25,275 nt of DNA, taken from a virus. Shown in pieces: positions 9,613 to 21,901 of the stretch. The first letter of the stretch is position 1; every line of letters starts with the position of its first letter. The notes below the pieces were generated by a model, which was given only the letters and a program-made list of their open reading frames with translations, was not told where the DNA came from and searched no databases. The stretch spans positions 1 through 25,275 of the IMG/VR virus record IMGVR_UViG_3300042002_000093; one strand, 5' to 3'. A program made the position numbers and the translations under genes.

Positions 9613-9639
9613 CTTGTTTGCGTACGAGTATCGTATCAC
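9613..9639 (-). promoter_or_regulatory. 27-bp promoter/leader module for 9335-9601
   Basis: Reads GTGATACGAT, ACTCGTA, CGCAAACAAG on the minus strand: extended -10 TGATACGAT, 7-base spacer and the common leader box at the expected transcript start. The ribosome site GGGAG follows at once. A GTTCG-N7-CGAAC dyad (9643-9659) lies at the -35 position. Confidence 0.8.
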
Positions 9640-9660
9640 GCGGTTCGGGAGGCACGAACA

Positions 9661-9686
9661 CGGCCCCCCACCGAAGCGGGGGGCCG
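9661..9686 (-). terminator. hairpin terminator after 9702-9893
   Basis: 9-bp stem CGGCCCCCC / GGGGGGCCG with an 8-base loop, between the stop of the Pro-rich ORF and the next promoter module. Confidence 0.7.
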
Positions 9687-9701
9687 TTGTCTCATGTGCT
9701 G

Positions 9702-9893
9702 CTACTGGGTGCCGCTCCACCGGCCGGGAGCGCGGGTTTCGTTGCCGCGCGGCCCGAGTCGCGGGTCACCGAACGGCATTTCCCACGGTGAGAGCACTGG
9801 CGCTTTCGGCGGGTGCGGTTGGATGTCGGATGCCCGCAAGTTCGGGCGCGGCGCCTCCGGCGGCCGGATACCGGCGGTGTCGTCGCGTGTCAC
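9702..9893 (-). CDS. proline-rich small protein (second part of amber-split gene)
   Basis: A 63-residue Pro/Arg-rich ORF from GTG 9893: MTRDDTAGIRPPEAPRPN and onward, ending GRWSGTQ. It lies in the same frame as the upstream 35-residue ORF, separated only by TAG and three sense codons, and has the same Pro-rich composition. There is no good ribosome site ahead of the GTG, so it would be made by reinitiation after the TAG, by amber readthrough, or not at all if the TAG is a recent mutation or sequencing error. A hairpin terminator follows. Function unknown; likely disordered. Confidence 0.55.
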   Translation of the reverse strand: MTRDDTAGIRPPEAPRPNLRASDIQPHPPKAPVLSPWEMPFGDPRLGPRGNETRAPGRWSGTQ

Positions 9894-9902
9894 CAGCGGC
9901 GC

Positions 9903-10010
9903 CTACGGCTTCGGCTGGACGGGGTTCGACGGCGGCGGCTTCGGTCGGTCGGTGGGGCGTCCGGTGTCGGTGCCCGGCTTCGGGTGCGATCCTGCGCCAG
10001 CTCGATACAT
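9903..10010 (-). CDS. proline-rich 35-residue leader ORF (first part of amber-split gene)
   Basis: ORF from ATG 10010 reading MYRAGAGSHPKPGTDTGRP and ending PSNPVQPKP before TAG. The ribosome site GGGAG lies 6 bases upstream, right after a promoter module, so this is the start that ribosomes should use. A nearby ATG at 10015 in another frame is only one base from GGGAG. In-frame coding continues after the TAG (GTG 9893). The whole frame without the stop would be about 102 residues. Confidence 0.6.
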   Translation of the reverse strand: MYRAGAGSHPKPGTDTGRPTDRPKPPPSNPVQPKP

Positions 10011-10025
10011 TGCATACTCCCTTTT

Positions 10026-10052
10026 GTTGTTTGCGGTCATAAAACATATCAC
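10026..10052 (-). promoter_or_regulatory. promoter/leader module (divergent copy) for 9903-10010
   Basis: GTGATATGTT, TTATGAC, CGCAAACAAC on the minus strand. The -10 differs (TATGTT) and the last base of the box is C, but the 7-base spacing is kept. It abuts the hairpin that ends the upstream transcript. Confidence 0.65.
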
Positions 10053-10080
10053 GCGGGCGGTGCGGTGACGCACCGCCCGC
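10053..10080 (-). terminator. hairpin terminator after 10087-10416
   Basis: Perfect 11-bp stem GCGGGCGGTGC / GCACCGCCCGC with a 6-base loop, 6 bases after the stop codon and directly joined to the next promoter module. Confidence 0.75.
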
Positions 10081-10086
10081 GCCCGT

Positions 10087-10416
10087 TCACCTTGCGGCGA
10101 CGAGCGATCGAATGTGGCGCTTGGCGCGCTCGGAACGTTCGGCGTAGGGGAGCGTCATGGGGTGCCCGGGGGCGCCGGTGGTGTCGAAGATGTCGGGGAG
10201 TTCGGCGATGCGGGCGATGGTGCCGACCAGTGCTTGCACTTCGGCGGCGACGTGCTCGGTGAGCGCGGCGTCGGCGTACTCGATGACGGCGCGCTGTGCG
10301 CGGACGGCTTCGGCCCACAGGATGTCGGAGCCGGGGTTGCGGGTGCACGCGCGGACGGCGACGGGGAGGTAGTCGAGCGCGGCGGAGAACTCGGTATCGG
10401 TGGTGAGGGCGGCCAT
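10087..10416 (-). CDS. unknown accessory protein, 109 residues
   Basis: Not recognised. It begins MAALTTDTEFSAALDYLPVA and looks mainly helical and soluble; it ends with the basic stretch YAERSERAKRHIRSLVAAR. ATG 10416 follows the stop of the small membrane-protein gene by 9 bases, with GGAG spaced 6 bases away, so both are on one transcript from the module at 10604-10630. A terminator follows. Pairing of a one-segment membrane peptide with a small soluble helical protein is noted, but nothing shows that they interact. Confidence 0.75.
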   Translation of the reverse strand: MAALTTDTEFSAALDYLPVAVRACTRNPGSDILWAEAVRAQRAVIEYADAALTEHVAAEVQALVGTIARIAELPDIFDTTGAPGHPMTLPYAERSERAKRHIRSLVAAR

Positions 10417-10425
10417 GGCGGACTC

Positions 10426-10593
10426 CTAGCGGTTGCGGCCAGCGCGGCGGGTGACGGCGGCGGTAGCGATGATGACGGTGGCGGCGTAGGCGCCGATGAT
10501 GGCGAAGGCGGTGGGGTGGTCGGTGATCGCGCCGGGGATGGCGGCCACGAAGTCGAAGAGGTGGGACCACGTGGTGGTGATCGTGTCGAGCAT
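10426..10593 (-). CDS. small single-pass membrane protein, 55 residues
   Basis: ORF from ATG 10593 reading MLDTITTTWSHLFDFVAAIP and ending TRRAGRNR. A hydrophobic segment at about residues 27-47 (FAIIGAYAATVIIATAAV) is followed by a basic tail, which predicts one membrane span with the C terminus inside. The ribosome site GGGAGG is placed right behind a promoter module, the best support that it is real. It is the first gene of a two-gene cassette. A holin-like or membrane-anchoring role is possible but unsupported. Confidence 0.75.
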   Translation of the reverse strand: MLDTITTTWSHLFDFVAAIPGAITDHPTAFAIIGAYAATVIIATAAVTRRAGRNR

Positions 10594-10603
10594 GGGAACC
10601 TCC

Positions 10604-10630
10604 CTTGTTTGCGTATGGGTATCGTATCAC
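10604..10630 (-). promoter_or_regulatory. 27-bp promoter/leader module for 10426-10593
   Basis: GTGATACGAT, ACCCATA, CGCAAACAAG on the minus strand. The -35 position is occupied by the stem of the preceding hairpin, so the promoter must work through its extended -10. Confidence 0.8.
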
Positions 10631-10639
10631 AAGGGGTTA

Positions 10640-10660
10640 GGGGGCCGCGTACCGGCCCCC
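10640..10660 (-). terminator. hairpin terminator after 10674-12158
   Basis: 7-bp stem GGGGGCC / GGCCCCC with a 7-base loop, 13 bases after the stop of the Cys-rich protein gene and only 9 bases ahead of the next promoter module. Confidence 0.65.
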
Positions 10661-10673
10661 TCCGATCGGATCG

Positions 10674-12158
10674 CTACGACTTCAACAGCTTCGCGTCCTC
10701 GCACGGGTACGTGACGCCCGGGTGATCCGGGGCCACGAGCTTCACCAGCTTCGAGCACGCGGCGCACACGATGAAGTCGCCGCCGCCGATGCGGGCGTTG
10801 ATGGGCCGGTGGCGCTGGGCGATGGCGTCGAGCTTCGCGCGGTACTCCCGCGCGCAGTCCTCGCACTGGCCGAACGTGCACGAGCAATTCGGGTTCGACG
10901 CGATGGGCGCGAACGACGGGGCCTCCGCATCGGCGGCGGCGAGCGCGTCGGAGGCCATGGCGGCGCGGTCGGCGTCCTCACGGGCGGCCAGCGCGGCGGC
11001 GGCCGCGGCTTCGGCGCCGTGGCGCACACACGTGGTTTCGCCGGGCTCGGCGTCGGCGTAGCACGTGAACACGGTGCACTTTCCGGCGGCGGCCGCCGCG
11101 GCAAGGAACGTTCCCCACGCGTCGTCGGCGGCGAGCCGGTCGGCGGCGGCGCCCGTCTCTTCGAAGCGGTCGGCGGCCACCATGTATGCCTTGCGGGCGT
11201 CGTCGTAGGCGGGGAGCGGCGTGCCCTCGCCGTCGCCGTGCACGGTGGCCGTCCACCATGCGGCGCCCAAGCGGGTGTTGTGCTCGACGTGCTCGCCGCG
11301 CTTGATGCACGGGTAGCCGATGCCGTCGACAGTGGTGCGCTCGCCGCAAGCCGTGTCGTCGTCCTCGATGTCGTCGCGCAAGTCGTGCTCGGGGCAGTAG
11401 GCGCGGTAGGGGTCGGTGGTGTTCTCGCACCCGAAGATGAGGCACCGGTCAATGGCGTCGGCGGCGTCGCGGTACCGCTCGTAGGCGGCTTCGGCGGCCG
11501 CGTCGGCGGCGTCGTCGGTGACGGCCGCGGCGCGGTCGGCGGTGTACTTGGCTTCGCGGTAGGCGAGTTCGTAGGCGCGCTGGCGCTCGTGCTCGGTGGG
11601 CTCGGCGTCGGCGATGGGGTCCACCCATGCGCCGTCGCCGTCGGCGGCGTCGTGGTCGAAGAACTCGAAGGATTCCACGGTGTCGTAGGCGACTTGGCGG
11701 CGGCGTCCGGTGATGAAGGCAGCGACCATCGCGCCGTCGGTGCCGGTGCCCGCGATGGTGCCCGTGATGGTTTCGCCGCTCGACGTGTAGAGCTGGACAT
11801 CGGTTCCGGCCGGGAGCGCGGCGAGGGCGGTGGCGTAGGTGGGGGCGGCCGGGGCCGCGGGGGCGGCGTTCTTGGCGTCCTCGATGGCGCGGAGGGCGGC
11901 CCGCTCGCAGTTCTTGCACAGCTTGCGGCCGGTGGCTTCGCATGAGGCGCGGGCGTCTTCGAGGGCGGCGGTGAGGTCGGCATTGGCGGTGAGGATATTC
12001 ATGCGGTGGGCGGAGCGGGTGAGGGCGCTGCAAGCGCTGTTGGCGTAGTAGCCGACGACGCCGGTGGTGGCGGAGTTGTCGGTGGCGGGGCCGGTGGTGC
12101 GCTCGGGGATGCCTTGGATGTGGGTGGTGGCCCGGGTGGCACAGATGATGTACGGCAT
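10674..12158 (-). CDS. large Cys-rich accessory protein with repeated C4-C10-C2-H fingers
   Basis: A 494-residue protein of unknown family, the largest of the accessory block. It has several probable metal sites: C73, C81, C84; C239-C244-C255-H258; C271, C284, H290, H293; C361-C366-C377-H380; C425, C427, C432, C435; and C465, C468, C486. The second and fourth have exactly the same C-x4-C-x10-C-x2-H spacing and a shared CxxF core (CLIFGC and CTVFTC), so they look like copies of one finger. Ala/Asp-rich helices separate them. A beta-rich segment spans about 115-168. ATG 12158 follows a promoter module and AGAGG. A nucleic-acid or protein-binding scaffold is inferred from the fingers only. Confidence 0.8.
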   Translation of the reverse strand: MPYIICATRATTHIQGIPERTTGPATDNSATTGVVGYYANSACSALTRSAHRMNILTANADLTAALEDARASCEATGRKLCKNCERAALRAIEDAKNAAPAAPAAPTYATALAALPAGTDVQLYTSSGETITGTIAGTGTDGAMVAAFITGRRRQVAYDTVESFEFFDHDAADGDGAWVDPIADAEPTEHERQRAYELAYREAKYTADRAAAVTDDAADAAAEAAYERYRDAADAIDRCLIFGCENTTDPYRAYCPEHDLRDDIEDDDTACGERTTVDGIGYPCIKRGEHVEHNTRLGAAWWTATVHGDGEGTPLPAYDDARKAYMVAADRFEETGAAADRLAADDAWGTFLAAAAAAGKCTVFTCYADAEPGETTCVRHGAEAAAAAALAAREDADRAAMASDALAAADAEAPSFAPIASNPNCSCTFGQCEDCAREYRAKLDAIAQRHRPINARIGGGDFIVCAACSKLVKLVAPDHPGVTYPCEDAKLLKS

Positions 12159-12172
12159 GGCCTAACCTCTTT

Positions 12173-12199
12173 CTTGTTTGCGTACTAGTACTGTAACAC
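12173..12199 (-). promoter_or_regulatory. 27-bp promoter/leader module for 10674-12158
   Basis: GTGTTACAGT, ACTAGTA, CGCAAACAAG on the minus strand, with the -10 variant TACAGT. The ribosome site AGAGG follows the box. Confidence 0.78.
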
Positions 12200-12219
12200 A
12201 CTGGGTTGAGGGCATGGCA

Positions 12220-12249
12220 CCGGCCCCCCACCATACGGTGGGGGGCCGG
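12220..12249 (-). terminator. hairpin terminator after 12261-12875
   Basis: Perfect 13-bp stem CCGGCCCCCCACC / GGTGGGGGGCCGG with a 4-base ATAC loop, ending the four-gene cassette that starts at 14478. Confidence 0.75.
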
Positions 12250-12260
12250 ATGTCCAGGGC

Positions 12261-12875
12261 TTACGCCGCGGCCACGAGCCACGCCCGAGCCGCGGCGCGG
12301 CGCCGCTCGATGCGCTCGCGCTGGCGGTTCGCGAGGGCCCGCCACTCGCGGCCGGAGCGCCGGAGCCGTTCGGGGAGCGGGGCGGCGTAGGCGGCGTAGT
12401 CGTATCCCACCAGGCGCCCGTCACGGCGGGCGCCGTTGAGTATCCCGGCGAGGAGCACGGTGCCCTCCTCGATGCGCTGTTCGATGGCCGAGTTGCGGGC
12501 GGCGTCGGCGTGGCCGTCGCGGGCGATGTCGGTGAGCGCGTCGGCAAGCTCGCCGACGGTGCTGAGGAGCCGCCACGTTCCGGCTCCGTTGGCGGTGGCG
12601 AGGTTCGAGCGGATGGCGCCGATGTGTCGCCACGCGGTGATCGCGTCGGCGTCGGCGGCGGCGAGGTGGCCGATGGAGCGCGCGCCGCGCGGGTACTCGT
12701 GGAACAGGCGGTAGTAGCGGAGACCGCCGGAGCCGAGCGGCCAGCGCGCGGCGGAGGCGATGAGGTCGGCGATGTAGGCGTGGTCGTGGCCGCGCTGTGC
12801 CAGGAGCGCGCGTTCGGCGTCGGTGACGCCGAGCGTGGCGAGTCGGGCGAACTGTGCGGAGGTGGGGAACCTCAT
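12261..12875 (-). CDS. unknown accessory protein, 204 residues, basic C terminus
   Basis: Not recognised. It starts MRFPTSAQFARLATLGVTDA and is mostly helical; the end (about 165-204) is strongly basic with many Arg (RLRRSGREW, NRQRERIERRRAAARAW) and could bind nucleic acid. It has no Cys cluster or membrane segment. ATG 12875 has AAGGA upstream, 17 bases after the preceding stop. It is the last gene of a four-gene cassette driven by the module at 14494-14520, followed by a strong hairpin. Confidence 0.75.
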   Translation of the reverse strand: MRFPTSAQFARLATLGVTDAERALLAQRGHDHAYIADLIASAARWPLGSGGLRYYRLFHEYPRGARSIGHLAAADADAITAWRHIGAIRSNLATANGAGTWRLLSTVGELADALTDIARDGHADAARNSAIEQRIEEGTVLLAGILNGARRDGRLVGYDYAAYAAPLPERLRRSGREWRALANRQRERIERRRAAARAWLVAAA

Positions 12876-12892
12876 GGGTGTGTCCTTACTGG

Positions 12893-13258
12893 CTAGAGGG
12901 CGTTGAGGTGGATAAGGGTGTAGCGGAGGCGTTCGAGTTGGTTGTCAGCGTCGGCGAAGCGGCGCCGGATGTCATCGAGGCGTTCGGGGGCGATGGTGAT
13001 GGAGTCGAAGGTGGACGCGGTGGTGAGCGCGTCGCGGAGCCGTACGTGGTCGGTGACGGCGCGCGGGAGCGCTTTGAGTGCGTGCTCGGCGTGCATCCGC
13101 TCGGCCGGGTCGGTGAGGACGGCGGCGGCGGCCACGAGGTCGGCGTAGATGTCATCGGCGACGGCTTTGATGGGCAACGCGATGGCGTCGAGCACGCCGC
13201 CGGAGGGCGGGAGCCGGTCGGCGGCCGCGGCGGCGCGGATGTAGTGGTTCACGAGCAT
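12893..13258 (-). CDS. unknown accessory protein, 121 residues
   Basis: Not recognised. It starts MLVNHYIRAAAAADRLPPSG and appears all-helical, with a charged C-terminal half (APERLDDIRRRFADADNQLE) that may form a coiled coil. ATG 13258 follows GGAAGG at a suitable distance and comes after an intercistronic hairpin (13278-13304) with no promoter module. It is therefore probably expressed by read-through from upstream or from a processed message. Confidence 0.75.
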   Translation of the reverse strand: MLVNHYIRAAAAADRLPPSGGVLDAIALPIKAVADDIYADLVAAAAVLTDPAERMHAEHALKALPRAVTDHVRLRDALTTASTFDSITIAPERLDDIRRRFADADNQLERLRYTLIHLNAL

Positions 13259-13277
13259 GTGGTGTTCCTTCCGTTCG

Positions 13278-13304
13278 GGGCCCGGCGCGGGATGCGCCGG
13301 GCCC
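13278..13304 (-). terminator. intercistronic hairpin between 13312-13947 and 12893-13258
   Basis: Perfect 11-bp stem GGGCCCGGCGC / GCGCCGGGCCC with a 5-base loop, just after a stop codon. No promoter follows before the next gene, so it is either a leaky terminator or an mRNA end-protecting/processing hairpin. Confidence 0.6.
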
Positions 13305-13311
13305 TGGTGGG

Positions 13312-13947
13312 CTACTTGGGGTCGGTGACGCCGAGGAGTTCGGCGAGCTGTTCGAGGGGGACGCGGGCGGGCGCGCCATCGCTGTATGAGTCGTAGGTGA
13401 ACCCGGAATCGGCCCCGAACCGGGCTTGCCACGCGGTGAGTGCCTGGTCGTAAACGCCGCGGAGGCGTTCGCGCTCGGCGCGCTGGTGTTCGCGCTCGGC
13501 GGCTTCGGCGGCCTCACGCCGGTCGTAGGCGGCCACGACGGGGCGCCAGCGGCCGTGAAGCTGGCGCGGTTCGATGACGGTGAGGCGCGCCCCGCCGGGG
13601 GTTTCCTTCGCGAGCGCGGCCACGGTCTCGGGGGTGAGGGTGTGGGGGTCGTCCAGGCAGGAGAACCACAGTGCCATTTCATCGGCGGAGTGGTCGCGCT
13701 TGTCGGTGTCGTAGGTGGATTCGGCGACAAAGGCGAGGAGTCCCCACCACTGGGAGTCGTACGACCCCCCGCCGCGGCGGCCGGGCCGGGTGGCCTCCGT
13801 GCGCTTCCACGTGTGGGTGTTGTTGAAGCGGTGCACGGAGTGCTCCCACAGTGTGGAGGTGTCGAGCACGATGGCGGCGCGGTAGCCGCCGGAGGCGCCC
13901 GCGCGGTAGGCGAGGAGTTCGCCGGTCTTGATTTCCTTGCGTTGCAT
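13312..13947 (-). CDS. unknown accessory protein with central coiled coil, 211 residues
   Basis: Not firmly recognised. It starts MQRKEIKTGELLAYRAGASG, a short beta-rich N-terminal domain with YRAAIVLDT, then an Arg/Gly-rich loop, a segment with SQWWGLLAF, and a charged helix at about 150-180 (RREAAEAAEREHQRAERER) that is a likely coiled coil. The opening KEIKxGxxYAY-type pattern resembles small uncharacterised actinophage proteins. ATG 13947 has GAGAGGA upstream. It lies second in the cassette, between two intercistronic hairpins. The start at 13983 is rejected because it has no ribosome site and reads into the hairpin. Confidence 0.75.
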   Translation of the reverse strand: MQRKEIKTGELLAYRAGASGGYRAAIVLDTSTLWEHSVHRFNNTHTWKRTEATRPGRRGGGSYDSQWWGLLAFVAESTYDTDKRDHSADEMALWFSCLDDPHTLTPETVAALAKETPGGARLTVIEPRQLHGRWRPVVAAYDRREAAEAAEREHQRAERERLRGVYDQALTAWQARFGADSGFTYDSYSDGAPARVPLEQLAELLGVTDPK

Positions 13948-13967
13948 GGTGATCCTCTCGGGTAGGT

Positions 13968-13997
13968 GGCCGGGCGCCCCCATCGTTGCGCCCGGCC
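13968..13997 (-). terminator. intercistronic hairpin between 14008-14478 and 13312-13947
   Basis: Perfect 10-bp stem GGCCGGGCGC / GCGCCCGGCC with a 10-base loop after the stop of the first cassette gene. It has no T-tract and no promoter follows it. Confidence 0.55.
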
Positions 13998-14007
13998 GGG
14001 TGCGGGT

Positions 14008-14478
14008 TTAGGCGGCGAGCGCGAGCATGTGGCGCTCGACTTCGGCCAGCTCGGCGTTGAGCTGTTCGAGTTCGTCTTGGCGGGCGGCGAGGGTGCGGTA
14101 TTCGGTGAGGTCGGTGGCGTCCAGGAGGGCGCGGGCGGCGGCGACGCGTTCGAGGGCGCGGGCCATGGCGCGCTTGTAGTAGTCGGTGGCGTCGATGCGG
14201 GCGGCGGCGCTCGCGGCGCGGGAGACTCGCGCCTTGGCGACGGCGGCGGCGCCGGGGATGAGGGCGTAGGAGCCGCGGGTGATGACCTCGCGCACTTCGT
14301 TGCCCCAGCGGTCGCGGGCGCCGGTGATGCGCCAGGCGATGAACCACACGCGGCCTTCGCCGGGGTCGGTGGTCACGTCGGCGATGACGCGGCGGCCGGA
14401 GTTGGGGGTGGCGAAGTAGGTGCGCGTCCAGGAGTGGGGGCGGTCGGTGGCTTTCCAGGGCTTCGCGGTCGCGATCAT
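14008..14478 (-). CDS. unknown accessory protein, 156 residues, C-terminal coiled coil
   Basis: Not recognised. It starts MIATAKPWKATDRPHSWTRT. The N-terminal part (about 20-75) looks like a small beta domain (RRVIADVTTD, GRVWFIAWRI, EVITRGSYALIP). The C-terminal half is helical and ends with heptad-like RQDELEQLNAELAEVERHML, a good coiled-coil candidate. ATG 14478 follows a promoter module with TGGAG about 9 bases upstream. First gene of a four-gene cassette. It diverges from the plus-strand gene at 14605. Confidence 0.78.
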   Translation of the reverse strand: MIATAKPWKATDRPHSWTRTYFATPNSGRRVIADVTTDPGEGRVWFIAWRITGARDRWGNEVREVITRGSYALIPGAAAVAKARVSRAASAAARIDATDYYKRAMARALERVAAARALLDATDLTEYRTLAARQDELEQLNAELAEVERHMLALAA

Positions 14479-14493
14479 CGTGGCGGCTCCATT

Positions 14494-14520
14494 CTTGTTT
14501 GCGTTTGAATAGCGTATCAC
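14494..14520 (-). promoter_or_regulatory. 27-bp promoter/leader module for 14008-14478
   Basis: GTGATACGCT, ATTCAAA, CGCAAACAAG on the minus strand, 14 bases behind the ATG. It is back-to-back with the plus-strand module at 14565-14591; about 44 bases separate them. Confidence 0.78.
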
Positions 14521-14564
14521 GGGGGAGGTGAGGGGGCGCACCGGGGGTCCGTCGACCGGAAGGC

Positions 14565-14591
14565 GTGTTACGCTAGCCTCACGCAAACAAG
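14565..14591 (+). promoter_or_regulatory. 27-bp promoter/leader module on plus strand for 14605-14931
   Basis: GTGTTACGCT, AGCCTCA, CGCAAACAAG, then GAGAGG and an ATG at 14605. It is the mirror-oriented copy of the leftward modules and shows that the element moves with the gene it serves and not with the operon. Confidence 0.8.
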
Positions 14592-14604
14592 AGAGGTTCC
14601 ATCG

Positions 14605-14931
14605 ATGAAGGTCTCATTTCACCAAGGCCCCAACGGTGTCGGCGTCGCCACCTACAACACCGACTGGCACGAGCGCGACGGCGTGCGGTTCTACCGCTCC
14701 ATCGCCGTCGAGCGCCACTTCACCCGCACACCGATGATGCGGCGCGAGGTGAGCATGTACCGCATCGTTGTCACCGAGCACCGCGCCGACGGCACCGCGC
14801 GCACCATCCGGCCCGGATACGGCATCCACACGTTCGCCGACGCGCTCGACGCGCTCGGCGCCGAGCTGCAAGCCGCCATCCGCGACGGGCTCGCCGCCAA
14901 GTCCGACTTGGAACGCCTCCCCATCGCGTAA
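14605..14931 (+). CDS. unknown rightward accessory protein, 108 residues
   Basis: One of only two plus-strand genes. It starts MKVSFHQGPNGVGVATYNTD and appears alpha/beta: beta-rich first half (GVRFYRSIAVERHF, MYRIVVTEHRADG) and a helical end (DALDALGAELQAAIRDGL). Not recognised. Support for being real is a promoter module, a good ribosome site (AGAGG) and a strong terminator downstream. It runs toward the leftward gene ending at 15069, and two facing terminators separate them. The opposite-strand ORFs here are shadows. Confidence 0.8.
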   Translation: MKVSFHQGPNGVGVATYNTDWHERDGVRFYRSIAVERHFTRTPMMRREVSMYRIVVTEHRADGTARTIRPGYGIHTFADALDALGAELQAAIRDGLAAKSDLERLPIA

Positions 14932-14953
14932 GATCACCGGCGGTAATCGACGC

Positions 14954-14989
14954 CGAAGGGGCCCCGGAGCACAAGCCGGGGCCCCTTCG
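14954..14989 (+). terminator. terminator of plus-strand gene 14605-14931
   Basis: Perfect 14-bp stem CGAAGGGGCCCCGG / CCGGGGCCCCTTCG with an 8-base loop, 22 bases after the stop. Confidence 0.75.
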
Positions 14990-15030
14990 CTGTGCCCGCC
15001 AGCGCGGCCGTGGAGGGCCGTGCACGGCGA

Positions 15031-15059
15031 AGCGCCCCCGGGGATATCCCGGGGGCGCT
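15031..15059 (-). terminator. hairpin terminator after 15069-15764
   Basis: Perfect 12-bp stem AGCGCCCCCGGG / CCCGGGGGCGCT with a 5-base loop, facing the plus-strand terminator at 14954-14989. Confidence 0.75.
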
Positions 15060-15068
15060 GGCGGTGTC

Positions 15069-15764
15069 TTAGAGGGTGACTCCGGCGCTTTCGAGGGCGT
15101 CGAGCCACCGGCGGTATGCGGCGCGCTCGCGGGCGTCGGATGAGGTGTTGTAAGCGCACGCCCACAAGCGGTCCACGGTGAAGTCCGCGAGCTGTTCGCG
15201 GGTGCCGGTGATGCGGAGGGAGCCGCGGGCGCCGCCGGGGGCGGTGTGGAGGCCGTCGAGCGCGTCGGTGTCGGCGATGATGTCGCGGAGGGCGGCGGGG
15301 AACGTGACGGTGACGGTGGGTTCGGCGTCCACGGGCGCGGGCTCCTCTTCGACGGCGGTGGTCGTGGGGCGGGGGAACTCGCCGTGAAGGTAGCGGACCC
15401 ACAGCGCCCACGCGGCGGTGTCGGCGTCGGCGTTGCCCATGCCCTCGCGGCGGAAGGTGTCGCACAGCGTGGAGTAGGTGGTGGGGTCGGCGCCGTCGTG
15501 GTCGGCGAGGGCGTGCACGAGGGCGATGCGCTCGGGGGTGGCGGTGTCGGCCGGGGCTTCGGTGCCGACCTCCGGGGCGTAGTTGAGCGAGTAGTGGAGT
15601 TCGAGGGCGCCATACATGGCGGGGTCGTGCTCGGCGAGGGCTTCGATGGCGGCGCGGAGCTGTGCTTTGTTCATCGTGGAGCGGCGGTTGATGTGGGCGG
15701 CGGTGGCGAGGCGGTAGAGGTCGGCGCGGGTGAGGGCTTCGAGGTTCATGGCGGTCGCGTTCAT
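15069..15764 (-). CDS. accessory protein with N-terminal SAP/Rho-N-like module (paralogue of 16250-16957)
   Basis: A 231-residue protein. Residues about 6-61 (from MNLEALTRADLYRLATAAHI) form a helix-extended-helix module of the SAP/Rho N-terminal type, with the conserved-looking MNKAQLRAAIEAL. By hand alignment 37 of 56 residues are identical to the start of the gene at 16250-16957. The remaining part differs: an acidic, Pro-rich linker (about 130-150) and a C-terminal domain with beta-rich VTVTFPAALRD and a helical end. ATG 15764 is preferred since GAAGGAG is 6 bases upstream; ATG 15749 is the alternative that aligns with the paralogue. Such modules often bind nucleic acid. Function unknown. 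Confidence 0.8.
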   Translation of the reverse strand: MNATAMNLEALTRADLYRLATAAHINRRSTMNKAQLRAAIEALAEHDPAMYGALELHYSLNYAPEVGTEAPADTATPERIALVHALADHDGADPTTYSTLCDTFRREGMGNADADTAAWALWVRYLHGEFPRPTTTAVEEEPAPVDAEPTVTVTFPAALRDIIADTDALDGLHTAPGGARGSLRITGTREQLADFTVDRLWACAYNTSSDARERAAYRRWLDALESAGVTL

Positions 15765-15778
15765 GGTTTTGCTCCTTC

Positions 15779-15805
15779 GTTGTTTGCGTACGAGTATCGT
15801 ATCAC
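15779..15805 (-). promoter_or_regulatory. 27-bp promoter/leader module for 15069-15764
   Basis: GTGATACGAT, ACTCGTA, CGCAAACAAC on the minus strand; the first 26 bases are identical to the modules at 9613 and 16971. The ribosome site GAAGGAG follows. Confidence 0.8.
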
Positions 15806-15819
15806 GGTCGAATCAGGGT

Positions 15820-15840: not shown

Positions 15841-15850
15841 GAACCGCGCC

Positions 15851-16189: not shown

Positions 16190-16213
16190 GGTGATGTCCT
16201 TTCATGTCGCGTG

Positions 16214-16242
16214 CGGCCGGGCCCCTTCGCGGGGCCCGGCCG
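16214..16242 (-). terminator. intercistronic hairpin between 16250-16957 and 15851-16189
   Basis: Perfect 12-bp stem CGGCCGGGCCCC / GGGGCCCGGCCG with a 5-base TTCGC loop, 7 bases after a stop codon. No promoter follows before the next gene. Confidence 0.6.
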
Positions 16243-16249
16243 GTGGTGG

Positions 16250-16957
16250 CTACTTGCCGTTGTCGATGACCACGACGTTGCGGGAGAACCCGCCATCGGT
16301 GCGTGAGCCGGTGCGGTCGCTCGGGATGGTGTTGCGCGACGGCTCGGGGATGGAGACGCGCACGAGCCCGACATAGAACCCCTTGCGGGCGTTGGTGGCG
16401 CGGGCCCGCGCCGGGTCCTGCGCGCTGGATTCGTTGAACCATCCGATGATCCTCGAATCGGGGTCGTCGGATTCGAGGATGGCCCACGCGTAGCCGTACT
16501 TGGTTTCGAGGTACTTGGCGGCCACGAGGTTGCCGTCAAGGTCGAACAGCGCGTGATAGTCCCACGTCCATCCGCGATCGGCGAGGGTCGCGAGGTGGTG
16601 GTAGCGGTTCGCCATCTGATTCGCGGCCCACTGCGACAGGAAACCATCGGTGTCGGAGCGCTCCTCGGATTCGATGCGGCGCGCGTGGCACTCGCGGGCC
16701 CGGCCGCGCCAGTATTCGGCGCTTTCGGTGTCGGGCGTCAACGGGTGGGCGTCGGCCGGGTCGGCGGCGGGCTCGGTGTCGGCGGTGGTGTTGAGCGTGT
16801 GCGCGAGTTCGAGCGCGGCGAACATGCCCGGGTCGGTGGTTTCGAGCGCTTCGATGGCGGCGATGAGCTGGGCTTTGTTCATGGCCGAGCGGCGGCGGAT
16901 GCGGGCGGTGGTGGCGAGGGTGTACAGCTCGGGCCGGGTGAGTTCGTGAAGGTTCAT
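16250..16957 (-). CDS. accessory protein with N-terminal SAP/Rho-N-like module (paralogue of 15069-15764)
   Basis: A 235-residue protein. Residues 1-56 (MNLHELTRPELYTLATTARI, then RRRSAMNKAQLIAAIEAL) are the same helix-extended-helix module as in the protein at 15069-15764. The rest is unrelated to that paralogue: an acidic linker (about 57-80), a helical part with EYWRGRARECHARRIESEER, and a C-terminal domain with LFDLDGNLVAAKYLETKYG, SRIIGWFNE and VGLVRVSIPEP that looks beta-rich. Not recognised. ATG 16957 follows a promoter module; GGGAT is a modest ribosome site. A shared head with different tails suggests a common docking or nucleic-acid-binding module. Confidence 0.8.
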   Translation of the reverse strand: MNLHELTRPELYTLATTARIRRRSAMNKAQLIAAIEALETTDPGMFAALELAHTLNTTADTEPAADPADAHPLTPDTESAEYWRGRARECHARRIESEERSDTDGFLSQWAANQMANRYHHLATLADRGWTWDYHALFDLDGNLVAAKYLETKYGYAWAILESDDPDSRIIGWFNESSAQDPARARATNARKGFYVGLVRVSIPEPSRNTIPSDRTGSRTDGGFSRNVVVIDNGK

Positions 16958-16970
16958 TTCAACATCCCAT

Positions 16971-16997
16971 CTTGTTTGCGTACGAGTATCGTATCAC
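16971..16997 (-). promoter_or_regulatory. 27-bp promoter/leader module for 16250-16957
   Basis: GTGATACGAT, ACTCGTA, CGCAAACAAG on the minus strand, identical to the module at 9613. It is also preceded by a related GTTC/GAAC dyad at 17001-17017, at the same distance as in the 9613 copy. Confidence 0.8.
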
Positions 16998-17018
16998 GAC
17001 GTTCGGAGGGCATGAACA

Positions 17019-17052
17019 GGGGCCCCCACCTTCACGACTCGGCGGGGGCCCC
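17019..17052 (-). terminator. hairpin terminator after 17070-17861
   Basis: Perfect 9-bp stem GGGGCCCCC / GGGGGCCCC with a 16-base loop, 17 bases after the stop and just ahead of the next promoter. Confidence 0.7.
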
Positions 17053-17069
17053 GTCTCGGGAGGCAAGCT

Positions 17070-17861
17070 CTACACGGTGCCCGTCATGGTGCGGCGCGCG
17101 GCGTAGCTGGCGGCCGCTGTGCGCCGGTCGCGGGCGAAGGCGGCGGCCATGTCCGCGCGGGCGCGGTCCAAGCGCGTCGCCAGCGCGGTCATGATGTCGT
17201 CGGCGACGGCGGCCGCGTCGTCGCCGATGGGGGCGGCGAGCGCGCACCGATGGCGCATGTAGTGCGGGAGCGCCACGAGGAACGCGGTGTAGGCGGCGGG
17301 GGCGAGCCGGGCGACGCCGTAGCGGGTGTCGGCGCCGTCGGCGACGGCGGCGGCGCGGTGGACGTTGCCGAGCGCGTCACCGGCGCCGGTGAAGGCGCCC
17401 ACGAGGCCGCGGTGCGCGGACTCGGTGTCGTCGAGCGCCGACAGGAGCCCGATGGATTCGGGGTAGAGCGTGATGATGGCGAGGTGCGCGTCGAAGCGCT
17501 GGACATCGCACGCGGCGAGGTAGCGGTCACGCGCGGAGAGCACGGTGTCAGCGCGGGTGATGGCGTCGCCGTAGCGGGTGAGCGCGGCGCGCATGGCGTC
17601 GGCGTAGTCGCCGTGGTTGGCCGGGTCGGTGCGGCGGGTGTGCATCCGGTCGATGAAGTGCTTTTCGATGACGGTGAGGGCGGCGTCCAGCTGGGCGTCG
17701 GTCATGGCCTCGTGCTCGTGGCGTCCGCTGGTGGCGGGGCCGTCGGTGGTACGGGCGTTCTGGGTGCGCACGATGGAGGTGAACTCGCGGCGGAGGGCGG
17801 CGCCGTCGTCGTCGTGGCGGTCGGCGAGTCGGACGGTGGGCGCGGGTCGGCTTGCGGTCAT
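17070..17861 (-). CDS. accessory protein, 263 residues (paralogue of 17872-18822)
   Basis: Not recognised as a known family. It starts MTASRPAPTVRLADRHDDDG and is mainly helical and Ala-rich, with no membrane segment. A block YPESIGLLSALDDTESAH (133-150) matches YPGAAPLLSVLDDIEDAY (130-147) of the upstream gene at 10 of about 20 positions and the same place in the chain, so the two are probably diverged duplicates. ATG 17861 lies 10 bases after the upstream stop, with only a weak ribosome site (AAGTAGG), so translation may be coupled. A terminator follows. The longer ORF reaching 18038 is a shadow. Confidence 0.75.
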   Translation of the reverse strand: MTASRPAPTVRLADRHDDDGAALRREFTSIVRTQNARTTDGPATSGRHEHEAMTDAQLDAALTVIEKHFIDRMHTRRTDPANHGDYADAMRAALTRYGDAITRADTVLSARDRYLAACDVQRFDAHLAIITLYPESIGLLSALDDTESAHRGLVGAFTGAGDALGNVHRAAAVADGADTRYGVARLAPAAYTAFLVALPHYMRHRCALAAPIGDDAAAVADDIMTALATRLDRARADMAAAFARDRRTAAASYAARRTMTGTV

Positions 17862-17871
17862 GTCGGGTTGC

Positions 17872-18822
17872 CTACTTTCGGTTGGGTTCGCGGATGAGGA
17901 TCGTGAGGCCGTCGGCCTTGACGGTGGTGCCGAAGGCGAGGACACGGGCGGCGGCAACGCTTTCGGGGTCGGCTCCCTTCTTTTCGAGGACTTCGGCGGC
18001 GGCCGCGCGGGCGCTGTCCAGGTCGGGGAACTCGGCATAGGAGGGTTTGTTCAGCGTCTTGTAGCGCGTGTACGCGTTGCCGTATCCGCGGGCGTTGCGT
18101 TCGGCGTCGGTGGTGGCCGGGATGACCACGAGCGCGACGGGGCCGGTGTGCGCGGCCGGGGCGAGGTAGTCGCGGGCGAGAATCGCACGGGCGGTGTCGA
18201 GGCTGTCGGAGGCTTCGGCGAGTTCGGTGGCGCGGTCGGAGACATCGAGGGTGATGGACAGGAGCGTCCGGTGGTGGACGCTGGCGAGGTAGGTGCCGAA
18301 GGCGTCGCCGACGGTGCCGCCGAACATGGCGGTGAGTGCGTTGATGGTCCGCGCGAGGCGTTCGGCTCCGGCGCCGGAGGCGTAGGCGTCTTCGATGTCG
18401 TCCAGGACCGACAGGAGCGGGGCGGCGCCGGGGTAGGTGACCAGTGTGCCGATGTAGGCGGCGGCCCGGCCGGTGGCGCTGGTGGCGAGTACGGCGGCGC
18501 GCCGGTTGTCGTGGAGGTTGGCCGCGATGGCGGCTCCGGCGTGGCGGTGGTACTCGTTCACCGACCAGGCGAGAGCGTCGTGGAACTTCGCCTCCACACC
18601 CCGGCGCGCAACGGTGTCGGGGGCGATGCGTGCGAGTGATTCGATGATGCGTTCGAGGGCGCCACGGCGGTCGGCTTCGGTGTCGTATCGGTTGGTGTGG
18701 GTCGGGGCGAGGCGCCCGGGGTGGGCGTCGCGCATTCCCTCGTGGGCGATGTCCTGGATTTCGATGAACAGCGCTTCGACGGCCATGTGTGCGGCCGGGG
18801 TGAGCTGGTCGGTGTCGCTCAT
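17872..18822 (-). CDS. accessory protein, 316 residues (paralogue of 17070-17861)
   Basis: Starts MSDTDQLTPAAHMAVEALFI. The first 230 residues are helical, with the YPGAAPLLSVLDDIEDAY block shared with the next gene. The C-terminal part after about residue 235 is different: ALVVIPATTDAERNARGYGN, a segment YAEFPDLDSARAAAAEVLEKKG resembling a small alpha/beta unit, and a beta-rich end (VLAFGTTVKADGLTILIRE). Not recognised. It is first in a two-gene cassette, with ATG 18822 after a promoter module and GGGAGG. It is the first gene after the terminase. Confidence 0.76.
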   Translation of the reverse strand: MSDTDQLTPAAHMAVEALFIEIQDIAHEGMRDAHPGRLAPTHTNRYDTEADRRGALERIIESLARIAPDTVARRGVEAKFHDALAWSVNEYHRHAGAAIAANLHDNRRAAVLATSATGRAAAYIGTLVTYPGAAPLLSVLDDIEDAYASGAGAERLARTINALTAMFGGTVGDAFGTYLASVHHRTLLSITLDVSDRATELAEASDSLDTARAILARDYLAPAAHTGPVALVVIPATTDAERNARGYGNAYTRYKTLNKPSYAEFPDLDSARAAAAEVLEKKGADPESVAAARVLAFGTTVKADGLTILIREPNRK

Positions 18823-18834
18823 TGGTGAGCCTCC

Positions 18835-18861
18835 CTTGTTTGCGGACGTATATCGTAACAC
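18835..18861 (-). promoter_or_regulatory. 27-bp promoter/leader module for 17872-18822
   Basis: GTGTTACGAT, ATACGTC, CGCAAACAAG on the minus strand, followed by GGGAGG. A GGTTC-ACG-GAACC dyad (18872-18884) lies upstream between the terminase stop and the promoter. No strong terminator separates it from the terminase gene. Confidence 0.8.
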
Positions 18862-18889
18862 GACGCTGGTGGGTTCCGTGAACCGGCCC

Positions 18890-20524
18890 TCACCCGAGCG
18901 GGGACAGCCCTTGCCGTGGCAGGCGGGCACCGCGCGAGGGCCGCGAGGCCGCGGCCGGGGCGCCCCCGGCGGCATCGATCCAATAGGCCATGACCACGGC
19001 GTCCCCGTAGTCCGGGCTCCGGCCGAGCCGCTTGATGAGGTCTTCCTTTTTCTCCATACGGAGCTTCGGCGGGATGCCCGTGAGCGGTTCCAGCATCTTC
19101 GGCGTGGTGAGGTCGGCGGTGAGCTGTTCGTGCGGCGGGAGCATGATGGCGGCGCCGGTGTCGGGGTTCAACAGCTCGCGGAGGTGCCAGTAGGCGGCCG
19201 TGCGGGTGTTCGCGAACCCGAACGAGCGGTCACCGGTGCGGCGCTTCGTGGACGCCGACCCGGTGTACTTGATGACGCGGTAGCCGAGTTCATCGAGCCG
19301 CGAGGCCACACCCGACCCCACCCCGATCATGTCGACGGCCACCGGCGCCGACTTCACCTCCGCCTTGCGCACCGTGTTCTGTACCTTCGCCGTCACCCCC
19401 ATCACGGAGTTCCCTTGCGTGTAGACGAGTTCGACGGTGTGCACGCCGACGCGGCGCGCGATCACGGAGGCGTCGGCGCCGGTCGTCGCCACGTCCACGC
19501 CGTACGACGGGAGGCCGTCGGCCACCGGGCTCCCGAGCGCGGCCCACGCCGCGAACGCCTCGTGACCGGTCGGCACGTCGGCGACGGACTTGGGGCGCCC
19601 GGCCGCGCGCCAGGCGTGCCAGCGCTCCATAGCCGCCTCCACCCACGACAACGGGATGATCGCGTTCTCATCATCGGCGGCGAAGTCGCCTTCCACCTGT
19701 TGGCGGTACAGCGCCGAGTCGGTGCCCCAGTACTGCGCGCGGCGCTCGACGGACGCGAGGGACACGCGCCCGGCGGCCACGGCGTCGGACTTCGTGACGT
19801 GCACGGCGCGCCACCCCGCAACGCGGCCCTGGTGAATCTGGTAGAACCGCCCGGCCGGGGGGCCCGGGGTGGAGAGCGCGAGCACGTATTGGCCGTCTTC
19901 GCCGGTGAGCGAGCCTTCGAGCGCGTCGAATATCGAGTCGGGCACCGACTTCGCTTCATCGATGATGATGAGTAGCTGGTCGGCGTGCGCGGATTCGATC
20001 ATGTCGGGGTTGCGGGCGACGGCGGCGAACGCGGAGCCGTGCGGGAGCTGGATGGCCGCGGTGAGGAGTTCCCGTTCGGGCCGGAGCGGGAGGTAGAGGC
20101 CGCCGACGCGGGGCGCCCACTTGTGGACTTCGGGCCACAGCGCCCGGTAGAGGTGCCGGAACACGCCCGCCGTCGTCAGAATCTTCCAGTCCTGGCCGAG
20201 CGCTTCGCGGGTGCGCGCGAACCAATGCACCGCGGCGCTCGCAATGGTCGTCTTGCCCATGCCGCGGGGGCCGCGGACGGCGGCGCGGCCGTGCTCGGCG
20301 AGCGCGTCGAGCACGTCGAGTTGGTAGGCGGCGAACTCGCGGCCGGGCGGCATGGTGATGCACTCGCGACAGAACGCCGACGGGCGCGCGGCGTACAGCT
20401 CGTGGCGCTCGCGGGAGGCGGCGCCGCGGACGGCGGCCGCGCGCGCTTCGAGGTCGGCGAGGAGTTGCAACCGGCCGAGCTGGGAGCGCGCGAGTTCGAG
20501 GCGCCTATGGAGTGTCTGTTCCAT
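18890..20524 (-). CDS. terL: terminase large subunit
   Basis: A 544-residue DNA-packaging motor. The ATPase part has Walker A GPRGMGKTT (85-93), Walker B LLIIIDE (184-190) with its catalytic Glu, and a following STPGPP segment (218-223) in the place of the coupling motif. The RNase H-like nuclease part has GVDVATTGADASV (342-354) with D344, VAVDMIGVGSG (395-405) with D398, and SPDYGDAVVMAYW (503-515) with D506 and D509, a full set of acidic residues. I start it at ATG 20524, which overlaps the small subunit gene by 20 bases; the 34-residue longer start is a shadow. It is separated from the portal by about 10 kb of accessory genes, which is unusual. Confidence 0.93.
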   Translation of the reverse strand: MEQTLHRRLELARSQLGRLQLLADLEARAAAVRGAASRERHELYAARPSAFCRECITMPPGREFAAYQLDVLDALAEHGRAAVRGPRGMGKTTIASAAVHWFARTREALGQDWKILTTAGVFRHLYRALWPEVHKWAPRVGGLYLPLRPERELLTAAIQLPHGSAFAAVARNPDMIESAHADQLLIIIDEAKSVPDSIFDALEGSLTGEDGQYVLALSTPGPPAGRFYQIHQGRVAGWRAVHVTKSDAVAAGRVSLASVERRAQYWGTDSALYRQQVEGDFAADDENAIIPLSWVEAAMERWHAWRAAGRPKSVADVPTGHEAFAAWAALGSPVADGLPSYGVDVATTGADASVIARRVGVHTVELVYTQGNSVMGVTAKVQNTVRKAEVKSAPVAVDMIGVGSGVASRLDELGYRVIKYTGSASTKRRTGDRSFGFANTRTAAYWHLRELLNPDTGAAIMLPPHEQLTADLTTPKMLEPLTGIPPKLRMEKKEDLIKRLGRSPDYGDAVVMAYWIDAAGGAPAAASRPSRGARLPRQGLSPLG

Positions 20525-21005
20525 CGGTGTCCGCTTGGGGGTCGTGCTCGGCGAGGAACGCCGACAGCTCGGCAATGCGCGTCTCCACCGCGTCGAAGCT
20601 GATTTCATGCTTGACGGGCTGGTCAAGGCCCATCATGCGGGAGCGGTGGGCACTGATCTTGAGTACCGTCTCGATGGCCTTGAGTGCCACGGTGGGCTCG
20701 GGGAACGCGGTGTGCTGCCACGCGAGCGTCTGGAGCGTGTCGAGCCGCGCCAGTTCGACGCGGCGGGCGGTGTCGACGGTCTGTTCATTCTCCGCGGTGA
20801 TCGCGTCGAGCGCGCGGTGGTAGTCGGCGTTGGCGTGCTGGCGGGAGCCGTAGCCGAGCGCTTCGGCGATGGTCTGGAAATCATGCCCTTGCAGGCGCAT
20901 CTTGAGGTTTTTGGTCTGGCGCTCGCGGCGTTCGGCTTCGCGTTGTTCGCGTTCGGCCTTCGCCGAGCGGCGCGCGCGCGTGGATTGGCGCTTGTCGCCG
21001 CCCAT
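20505..21005 (-). CDS. terS: terminase small subunit
   Basis: A 166-residue protein overlapping the large terminase gene. The N terminus is very basic (RQSTRARRSAKAEREQREAE), followed by a helix-turn-helix-like segment GHDFQTIAEALGYGSRQHAN (39-58) for recognising the packaging site, then long helices for ring assembly. The acidic tail may contact the large subunit. The ATG at 21005 has GGGAGG upstream. The leader carries a 9-bp stem-loop (21033-21060). The call is supported by the HTH-plus-helices layout and the overlap with terL. Confidence 0.82.
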   Translation of the reverse strand: MGGDKRQSTRARRSAKAEREQREAERRERQTKNLKMRLQGHDFQTIAEALGYGSRQHANADYHRALDAITAENEQTVDTARRVELARLDTLQTLAWQHTAFPEPTVALKAIETVLKISAHRSRMMGLDQPVKHEISFDAVETRIAELSAFLAEHDPQADTDGTDTP

Positions 21006-21032
21006 GCCCGAACCTCCCTGTACGTGCCGCGG

Positions 21033-21060
21033 CGTCGCTCATGGGAAAACGTGAGCGACG
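21033..21060. other. perfect stem-loop in the terminase leader
   Basis: CGTCGCTCA / TGAGCGACG form a perfect 9-bp stem around a 10-base loop, about 28 bases before the terminase small subunit ATG. It is less GC-extreme than the terminators. It could be an operator, an autoregulatory site or part of the packaging site bound by the small terminase. None is proven. Confidence 0.5.
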
Positions 21061-21068
21061 TGTGGCCC

Positions 21069-21074
21069 ATCGTA
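21069..21074 (-). promoter_or_regulatory. possible -10 element for terminase genes
   Basis: TACGAT on the minus strand, the same hexamer as in the repeated modules, but with GG in place of TG before it and without the CGCAAACAAG box. A transcript starting near 21062 would begin with the stem-loop. Confidence 0.35.
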
Positions 21075-21120
21075 CCCGGATGGCATGTAGGGGACCTGGT
21101 ATGCGGTCACTACCAGCCAT

Positions 21121-21147
21121 GTGTTACGGTACTAGCGCGCAAACAAG
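21121..21147 (+). promoter_or_regulatory. 27-bp promoter/leader module on plus strand for 21161-21301
   Basis: GTGTTACGGT, ACTAGCG, CGCAAACAAG, then AGAGGAG and ATG 21161. Second rightward copy, divergent from the terminase promoter region. Confidence 0.8.
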
Positions 21148-21160
21148 AGAGGAGTTAGTC

Positions 21161-21301
21161 ATGTGGACTAGCGAAACGCAAGCCGAGTACGCCGACGCCA
21201 TGGAAGGCATCGAGCGCGAGGAGTCCGGCCCCGGGCTCCTGGTGCTCATCGACGCCGGGGAGCTGGACATGGACGCGTTGGCGGCCCTGTTCACGGAGTA
21301 G
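21161..21301 (+). CDS. small acidic rightward protein, 46 residues
   Basis: ORF from ATG 21161: MWTSETQAEYADAMEGIERE and ending DALAALFTE. It is strongly acidic and looks helical, with a hydrophobic VLI patch. Support comes from a full promoter module, the ribosome site AGAGGAG and an own terminator. An in-frame start at 21041 is rejected because it precedes the promoter. It resembles in size and charge small phage inhibitor peptides or DNA mimics, but there is no direct evidence for that. It sits divergently between terminase and the winged-helix protein gene. Confidence 0.75.
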   Translation: MWTSETQAEYADAMEGIEREESGPGLLVLIDAGELDMDALAALFTE

Positions 21302-21304
21302 ACG

Positions 21305-21340
21305 ACAGCGCCCCCGGTGTTTCGATCCCGGGGGCGCTGT
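21305..21340 (+). terminator. terminator of 21161-21301
   Basis: Stem of 13 bp, ACAGCGCCCCCGG / CCGGGGGCGCTGT, with a 10-base loop, starting 4 bases after the stop codon. Confidence 0.75.
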
Positions 21341-21368
21341 GATTCAACTCTACGCACGGTCACCGTAG

Positions 21369-21406
21369 CGAAGCGGCCCCGAACCTTCCGGTTCGGGGCC
21401 GCTTCG
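21369..21406 (-). terminator. terminator after 21415-21858
   Basis: Perfect 16-bp stem CGAAGCGGCCCCGAAC / GTTCGGGGCCGCTTCG with a 6-base loop, 9 bases after the stop. It faces the rightward terminator at 21305-21340, a convergent pair. Confidence 0.78.
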
Positions 21407-21414
21407 CGTATCGG

Positions 21415-21858
21415 CTACTTGTGGTGCGCGGCGCGCGGTGCGGGCATTCCCGCCGCCTGCCACTCGGCGACGGACTCCAAGTCGAGCCGCCACACCCCGG
21501 CGCCGTCTTTCTGGCCGTCGATGAGTCCGGCGTTGACGGCGCGCCACACGCGCATCTTCGACACCTTGAGGTCGGTGGCGACGGTGGACAGGTCACCGGA
21601 GGGGCGGCCGCCGGGGTCCGGGTCACCGGCGCGGGCGTCCTCCCACGCCTTGAGGGCGTCCAGCGGGTATGCCTTGATCTTGCCGTTCGGGGACATGGCG
21701 ATGGCGTCGGACTCCTCGCCGAGGAGCCCGAGCCCGGCGGCTCGGCGCACCTGGTCGGCGCTGGTGCCCGGTGTCATGCGCGCCCACGCGGCGGGGGTGG
21801 CGTAGTCGCGGCCGCCGCGGGTCACGATGCCCGGCCGGGTGGTCGTCGTGGCGCTCAC
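21415..21858 (-). CDS. putative DNA-binding protein with two winged-helix-like segments
   Basis: A 147-residue protein from GTG 21858 with GAGAGGAG 7 bases upstream. The segment LSTVATDLKVSKMRVWRAVN (90-109), then GLIDGQKDGAGVWRLDLESV, reads as an excisionase/MerR-like helix-turn-helix with wing. An earlier stretch (about 22-75, with ADQVRRAAGLGLLGEES and IKAYPLDALKAWED) has a similar layout, so there may be two tandem units. A role as regulator of the promoter modules or of packaging genes is inference. It has a promoter module that overlaps the end of the previous gene, plus its own terminator. Confidence 0.72.
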   Translation of the reverse strand: MSATTTTRPGIVTRGGRDYATPAAWARMTPGTSADQVRRAAGLGLLGEESDAIAMSPNGKIKAYPLDALKAWEDARAGDPDPGGRPSGDLSTVATDLKVSKMRVWRAVNAGLIDGQKDGAGVWRLDLESVAEWQAAGMPAPRAAHHK

Positions 21859-21874
21859 GCGGTCACTCCTCTCA

Positions 21875-21901
21875 TATGTTTGGGGGACTTCATCGTATCA
21901 C
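21875..21901 (-). promoter_or_regulatory. promoter/leader module (degenerate box) for 21415-21858
   Basis: GTGATACGAT, GAAGTCC, CCCAAACATA on the minus strand. The -10 is perfect while the leader box is only partly kept (CCAAACA). The -10 hexamer overlaps the stop codon of the preceding gene. Confidence 0.65.

Follow-up and report, generated by a model that had tools for sequence, protein, structure and literature searches.

Actinobacteriophages have been known since 2011 to carry repeated start-associated motifs, for which no function has yet been established. In cluster K mycobacteriophages the start-associated sequence (SAS) is a short asymmetric repeat of 11–19 copies, located directly before the start codons of non-structural genes, to which no role has been assigned (PMC3203893). 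For about half of the genes with a SAS, an extended start-associated sequence (ESAS) lies upstream as well (PMC3203893, PMC11373665); in phage Adephagia the ESAS has been proposed to contain a SigA-like promoter (PMC11373665). The soil-phage window described here, which is the whole of IMG/VR virus record IMGVR_UViG_3300042002_000093 (25,275 bases, 70 % G+C), carries 11 copies of a 27-bp module in which an extended −10 element is joined at a fixed spacing to a conserved box, CGCAAACAAG. This cassette marks non-structural genes and lies in one orientation relative to the gene; its fixed leader box probably acts in the RNA.

The initial annotation had listed 11 copies of the pattern GTGWTACGNT-N7-CGCAAACAAG. 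A pattern search allowing up to three mismatches returned those 11 matches, each at the position and on the strand claimed (Table 1), against 0 in 100 dinucleotide shuffles. The full pattern is matched exactly by seven copies. The inexact copies are those at 10026 (GTGATATGTT...CGCAAACAAC), 12173 (GTGTTACAGT), 15779 (box ending AAC) and 21875 (box CCCAAACATA); the last is genuine, its ortholog in the relative G001, introduced below, being CGCAAACATA. Within the window, CGCAAACAAG at up to one mismatch is confined to ten of the 11 module sites, and 10 of the 11 occurrences of TGNTACNNT fall within a module. Every copy is located directly upstream of a start codon.

A scan of 2.9 million viral contigs for the motif and for the portal protein yielded four relatives: G001 (3300049586_000065, 49,963 bases), whose terminase and portal are each 90 % identical to those of the window, G002 (3300031824_000013), G003 (3300031731_000024) and G006 (3300037440_000208). 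Given that its gene order wraps from end to beginning, as in the window, G001 is probably a near-complete, permuted genome. Building a motif and scanning the genome and its relatives, as had been proposed, gave 35 sites at ≥16 bits, 34 of them at ≥25 bits, across the five contigs (position weight matrix from 31 sites); these contigs are closely related, so that the independent observations are fewer than 34. The reversed matrix found 0 sites in those contigs where it was run. The −10 lies in called intergenic DNA for 30 of 31 copies in four contigs, though about 90 % of the sequence is coding (genes were called by a simple codon-usage script, not a standard gene finder). An equal abundance of the motif inside genes, which the initial annotation had named as the outcome that would speak against it, was not seen in the 50-kb relative G001, where all eleven strong copies are intergenic.

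Of the 25 G001 genes preceded by a gap of 40 bases or more, nine have the module, as does one gene with a gap of 39; the eleventh copy is about 70 nt upstream of a membrane-type protein gene. The genes that follow a module encode small proteins without an assigned function, an ERF recombinase (G001 46041) and a winged-helix protein (window 21415–21858). No module was found upstream of terminase, portal or capsid genes in G001.

The consensus over the 31 sites is GTGWTACGNTA-N5-ACGCAAACAAG. Its first block is an extended −10 (TGN-TANNNT) that fits the actinobacterial TANNNT, as first suggested, with TGNTACNNT in 10 of the 11 window copies and the TGNTANNNT core in 31 of 31 copies from four contigs. 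The predicted lack of a common −35 is borne out by motif columns −20 to −1, which hold no strongly informative position over 31 sites, and no TTGACA-type promoter was found. Spacer length is 7 in all copies, and searches allowing spacings of 6 or 8 between the −10 block and the box gave none; the claim that all seven spacer bases vary does not hold, as A occupies the first base in 28 of 31 and the last in 24 of 31. Seven bases past the −10, position 15 is C/T in 27 of 31 sites and position 16 is A/G in 26 of 31. This pyrimidine/purine signature would place the transcript start on the A immediately 5′ of the box, in agreement with the start at the box that had been anticipated. In Mycobacterium smegmatis a −10 TANNNT alone suffices for SigA, there is no −35 consensus, and transcripts start on A or G (PMC6448022). 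Based on the start signature and these promoter rules, the RNA is predicted to begin ACGCAAACAAG. The TANNNT core, the putative purine +1 and the lack of a −35 agree with a −35-less extended −10 promoter of the SigA type, and the promoter part is ordinary for actinobacteria.

The Shine–Dalgarno sequence comes next, again as anticipated, the box ending −2 to +5 bases from it in 32 copies. The box is 10–16 bases from the start codon, and the module is 10–20 nt from a start in 33 of 35 sites. Box leaders are predicted to be less structured than the other leaders of these phages (unpaired 0.80 versus 0.57, p ~5e-9; energy per base −0.135 versus −0.259). The terminator stems noted near some copies are not clearly more frequent than chance in this region (8 versus 6.6 expected), while a strong stem does overlap the 10026 copy. 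A spacer dyad, TACGA-TAC-TCGTA, was considered as an operator and dropped, being present only in copies with ACTCGTA. No Rfam match was found in the window.

Selection on both blocks, as argued initially, is supported by 30 orthologous pairs of modules, in which block 1 is 8.7 % and the box 7.3 % divergent, compared with 42 % for the inner five spacer bases, 47 % for the 30 upstream bases and 24 % for the four-fold codon sites of the downstream genes. Positions 0–2, 4–6, 9, 10, 16 and 19–23 of the motif are unchanged in all 30 pairs. Drift alone would hardly yield such a contrast between neighbouring blocks. Since close relatives retain the cassette almost letter for letter, the first letters of the RNA seem to have a function.

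Both parts of the cassette also occur separately. An extended −10 precedes the major capsid gene in the window, G001, G002 and G003 (GTGTTACCCT; G002 version GTGTTAACCT), in none of them with a box. A leader of about 90 bases, conserved in the four phages and predicted to form a long stem, stands in the place of the box; its base pairs are almost invariant, and covariation thus neither supports nor contradicts the fold. Because the capsid gene shares the extended −10 and lacks the box, the box would be dispensable for polymerase recognition, if the capsid site is indeed the promoter. Upstream of the capsid promoter the window has a short A+T-rich stretch (3840–3950), which is absent from that place in G001.

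Conversely, of 23 exact copies of CGCAAACAAG in the five contigs (0.16 expected by chance), 20 are in modules and three have no −10. The promoterless box at G002 24763(−) lies within an operon, 13 nt ahead of the GTG start of one of its genes; the orthologs of that gene in the window, G001 and G003 lack the box. Those at G001 37669(−) and G006 29576(−) come after a hairpin and are followed by a Shine–Dalgarno-like stretch; the pairing of the hairpin stem is kept through change (GAGCCGCC/GGCGGCTC versus GAACCGCC/GGCGGTTC). The existence of promoterless boxes, at least one of which precedes a genuine gene start within an operon, suggests that the box works at the RNA level, next to the ribosome site, rather than as a DNA operator. 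Together with the boxless capsid −10, the three exact boxes without a −10 weaken a purely transcriptional reading of the box, such as the initial transcribed signal for a phage factor or host polymerase that the initial annotation had put forward. The G001 and G006 boxes are part of a longer minus-strand array (G001 37440–37760, L086:17440–17760; G006 29360–29670), consisting of hairpin, promoterless box, Shine–Dalgarno-like stretch, full module and second hairpin. The array precedes a gene for a membrane-type protein, and the changes between the two phages leave the pairing of both stems intact.

It is proposed, with about an even chance of being right, that the module is a start cassette read by a host polymerase of the SigA type and that the box acts in RNA to aid translation. 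Each copy would serve a single non-structural transcription unit as its start cassette. The host RNA polymerase, carrying the housekeeping sigma factor (SigA-type), would recognize the −35-less extended −10 GTGWTACGNT and start on the A seven bases past it; the RNA would always open with ACGCAAACAAG, and the Shine–Dalgarno sequence would be reached within about five bases of the leader box. The box would then most likely serve as a fixed single-stranded 5′ leader by the ribosome binding site, one that raises, selects or protects translation and works like a start-associated sequence. The clear geometry of promoter, start, box and ribosome site, combined with five contigs, a boxless capsid promoter as an internal control and promoterless boxes, would allow a transcriptional role to be told apart from a translational one. 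The cassette could also be of use in high-GC bacteria as a compact part for gene expression.

Several observations weigh against this proposal. The distance from the box to the Shine–Dalgarno sequence and start codon varies, whereas that to the −10 is invariant, which ties the box more tightly to the promoter or the RNA 5′ end than to the ribosome site. A-rich composition alone explains the low structure of the leaders, for which the exact letters are not required. The modules at G001 37593 and G006 29495 retain most of the box, followed by a hairpin and no typical ribosome site. Furthermore, orthologous pairs share ancestry and are not independent, so the divergence contrast between box and spacer carries no p-value.

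Other readers of the box have to be considered. A possibility of some weight, though not a probable one, is that the 27-bp site is a DNA target, at which a phage DNA-binding protein on the box, and perhaps on the −10, represses or activates all eleven promoters. The geometry is fixed in all copies, and the asymmetric, strongly conserved two-block site resembles the stoperators bound by a monomeric two-domain mycobacteriophage repressor (PMC9283540). Cluster A stoperators are asymmetric sites to which an immunity repressor binds; the present sites are tied to promoters and gene starts. The best candidate is the 147-aa winged-helix protein (21415–21858), which has a BldC/Xis-like domain and is itself encoded downstream of a divergent module copy. 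In its C-terminal domain the protein is similar to excisionase families (phrog_66, E 9e-4), and a model of low confidence likens the domain to BldC and the Pukovnik Xis. With a mean pLDDT of 57 and no match in the PDB at E < 0.001, that model is poor and usable for the C-terminal domain only, and the protein is a candidate module regulator in the sense of a lead rather than a demonstrated binder. A DNA target also fits badly with three exact boxes that lack a promoter, at least one of them before a ribosome site inside an operon, and no integrase was found among 50 scanned G001 proteins, so that a lysogeny repressor is not evident. In a rather doubtful extension of the RNA role, the 5′-terminal ACGCAAACAAG would be a tag marking the non-structural mRNAs of the phage for a phage protein or a modified ribosome; the fixed promoter–tag spacing would make the RNA start precisely with the tag, which could also be placed inside an operon before a single gene.

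The box might need no separate reader, if as the first transcribed stretch it is tuned to the host polymerase and speeds promoter escape or guides the choice of start site. It opens one base past the predicted start at a fixed spacing, and productive initiation at the phage T5 N25 promoter changes strongly with the initial transcribed sequence (PMC12464699). Such effects tolerate many sequences, however, whereas motif positions 19–23 do not change in the orthologous pairs; with a capsid promoter that joins the same −10 to another start sequence, and with boxes that have no promoter, this explanation is unlikely. Recognition of all 27 bp by an RNA polymerase or sigma factor of the phage itself is very improbable. 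Phages that bring their own polymerase typically have many identical promoters, and cluster EC and EI phages with similar repeats carry an annotated sigma factor, but the −10 here fits a host sigma and is common to the capsid gene. No RNA polymerase or sigma family was found by Pfam in the 50 G001 proteins (the completeness of G001 being inferred and the window being a fragment), and likewise none in the 25 of 46 PHROG families listed; tblastn with EC/EI sigma proteins gave no meaningful match (best E 0.15). Recent duplication of one promoter, with a box under no selection, would account for copies that share even the spacer (ACTCGTA in 9613, 15779 and 16971). It is contradicted by the orthologous pairs, in which the box, unlike spacer and flanks, has not diverged, and can scarcely be credited.

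The portal family is found almost only in phages of Mycobacterium, Gordonia, Microbacterium, Arthrobacter, Streptomyces and Actinoplanes, and the host is therefore very probably an actinobacterium. Neither megablast nor a search with a 32-base module gave a match to named phages. A host or prophage origin was rejected, as the 18-base core is in none of 84,980 bacterial genomes nor does any of them encode a near relative of the portal; no prophage relative was found. Similar boxes in IMG/VR beyond the five contigs were also set aside, the high-GC matches looking like chance.

Table 1. Modules and related features of the window (positions in the window; the ORFs given for a module copy are those it would drive).
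Feature	Position	Strand	Remarks
Conserved capsid leader, predicted structured, in the place of the box	3697..3797	-	G001 equivalent 16747-16847
Extended −10 GTGTTACCCT, no box	3789..3798	-	about 100 bases upstream of major capsid gene
Module copy	9613..9639	-	extended −10 9639-9630, predicted start A 9623, box 9622-9613; ORF 9335-9601 (88 aa)
Divergent module copy GTGATATGTT/CGCAAACAAC	10026..10052	-	small downstream ORF, start ambiguous: ATG 10015 or 10010
Module copy	10604..10630	-	ORF 10426-10593 (55 aa), probably also 10087-10416
Module copy	12173..12199	-	ORF 10674-12158 (494 aa); orthologous copies in G001, G002, G003, G006
Module copy	14494..14520	-	ORF 14008-14478 (156 aa), probably also genes to 12261; divergent pair with 14565
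Module copy	14565..14591	+	ORF 14605-14931 (108 aa); divergent pair with 14494
Module copy	15779..15805	-	ORF 15069-15764 (231 aa, weak Rho_N-like N-terminus)
Module copy	16971..16997	-	ORF 16250-16957 (235 aa, weak Rho_N-like N-terminus)
Module copy	18835..18861	-	ORF 17872-18822 (316 aa)
Module copy	21121..21147	+	ORF 21161-21301 (46 aa)
147-aa protein, MerR/excisionase-like winged-helix C-terminal domain (BldC-, Xis-like)	21415..21858	-	candidate module regulator
Divergent module copy GTGATACGAT-gaagtcc-CCCAAACATA	21875..21901	-	ORF 21415-21858

The divergent module pair at 14494–14591 is retained in the same arrangement in G001, G002 and G003. The proteins of 15069–15764 and 16250–16957 have a common N-terminal segment weakly similar to Rho_N/SAP nucleic-acid-binding domains. 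One of the 50 scanned G001 proteins matches the Acb2/Tad1 hairpin domain (E 4e-13), its gene not being pinned down; the Acb2/Tad1 families sponge immune signalling nucleotides. Long G and C runs at the start of the contig (1–34) are probably a sequencing or assembly artefact.

Among known systems, the SAS and ESAS repeats of cluster K and the 18-bp repeat of Microbacterium cluster EC phages come nearest to the cassette. Like SAS and ESAS, the repeats described here are limited to the starts of non-structural genes in one orientation, with promoter plus box the usual form and the box without a promoter also occurring. Unlike SAS, with which it shares no sequence, the box is located upstream of the Shine–Dalgarno sequence, whereas SAS (GGGATAGGAGCCC) overlaps it. 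ESAS has a −35, a −10 and a 15–17 bp inverted repeat at variable spacing; the cassette has no −35, its box is fused at a fixed spacing, and no ESAS-type inverted repeat is present, the flank columns and spacer of the 31 sites carrying no conserved repeat.

The 18-bp repeat of Microbacterium cluster EC phages (Quhwah, PMC7302621; TAGaCTATaGGTgTaAgC) is similar in having a −10-like TAGACT followed by fixed transcribed bases, 21–30 bp before start codons, in 12 copies. Eleven EC sites extracted from Quhwah (L289, 2777 to 45587) run from the −10 TAGACT through a T/purine start to +6, and as in the cassette this start signature is found at an equal distance from the −10, with an A/C-rich leader after it. 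With a conserved element (TAACC..GATTAGAC) upstream of it and with that leader, the Quhwah repeat looks like a promoter. The EC sequence (TAGACTATAGGTGTAAGC) differs, however, and runs unbroken through the start, and EC phages carry an annotated sigma factor, whereas the cassette has a free 5-base gap, no upstream element and a longer fixed leader.

In Actinoplanes phage phiAsp2 (terminase 41 % and portal 34 % identical) an early-type repeated promoter, TTGACACTTCACAGTCAAGCCTGTAATGTT, was found in this analysis. About a dozen copies of GTTGACACTTCACAGTCAAGCCTGTAATGTT precede small genes there (L279, e.g. 32631–36624), with −35 and spacer conserved. The number of near-identical promoters is thus alike, but the phiAsp2 conservation is upstream (−35, spacer) with none downstream of the start. 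Fixed-geometry repeats were sought in TurkishDelight, Beagle, Kithara and MementoMori and none were found, MementoMori having two weak EC-like sites only. Actinobacterial SigA promoters (PMC6448022) share the TANNNT, the purine +1 and the lack of a −35 with the cassette, and differ in having no fixed transcribed box. A design without a −35, in which a free gap is followed by a fixed leader box at the 5′ end, was found in none of the other phages examined. Repeated promoter cassettes as such are not rare in actinophages, and the parts conserved differ from one to another.

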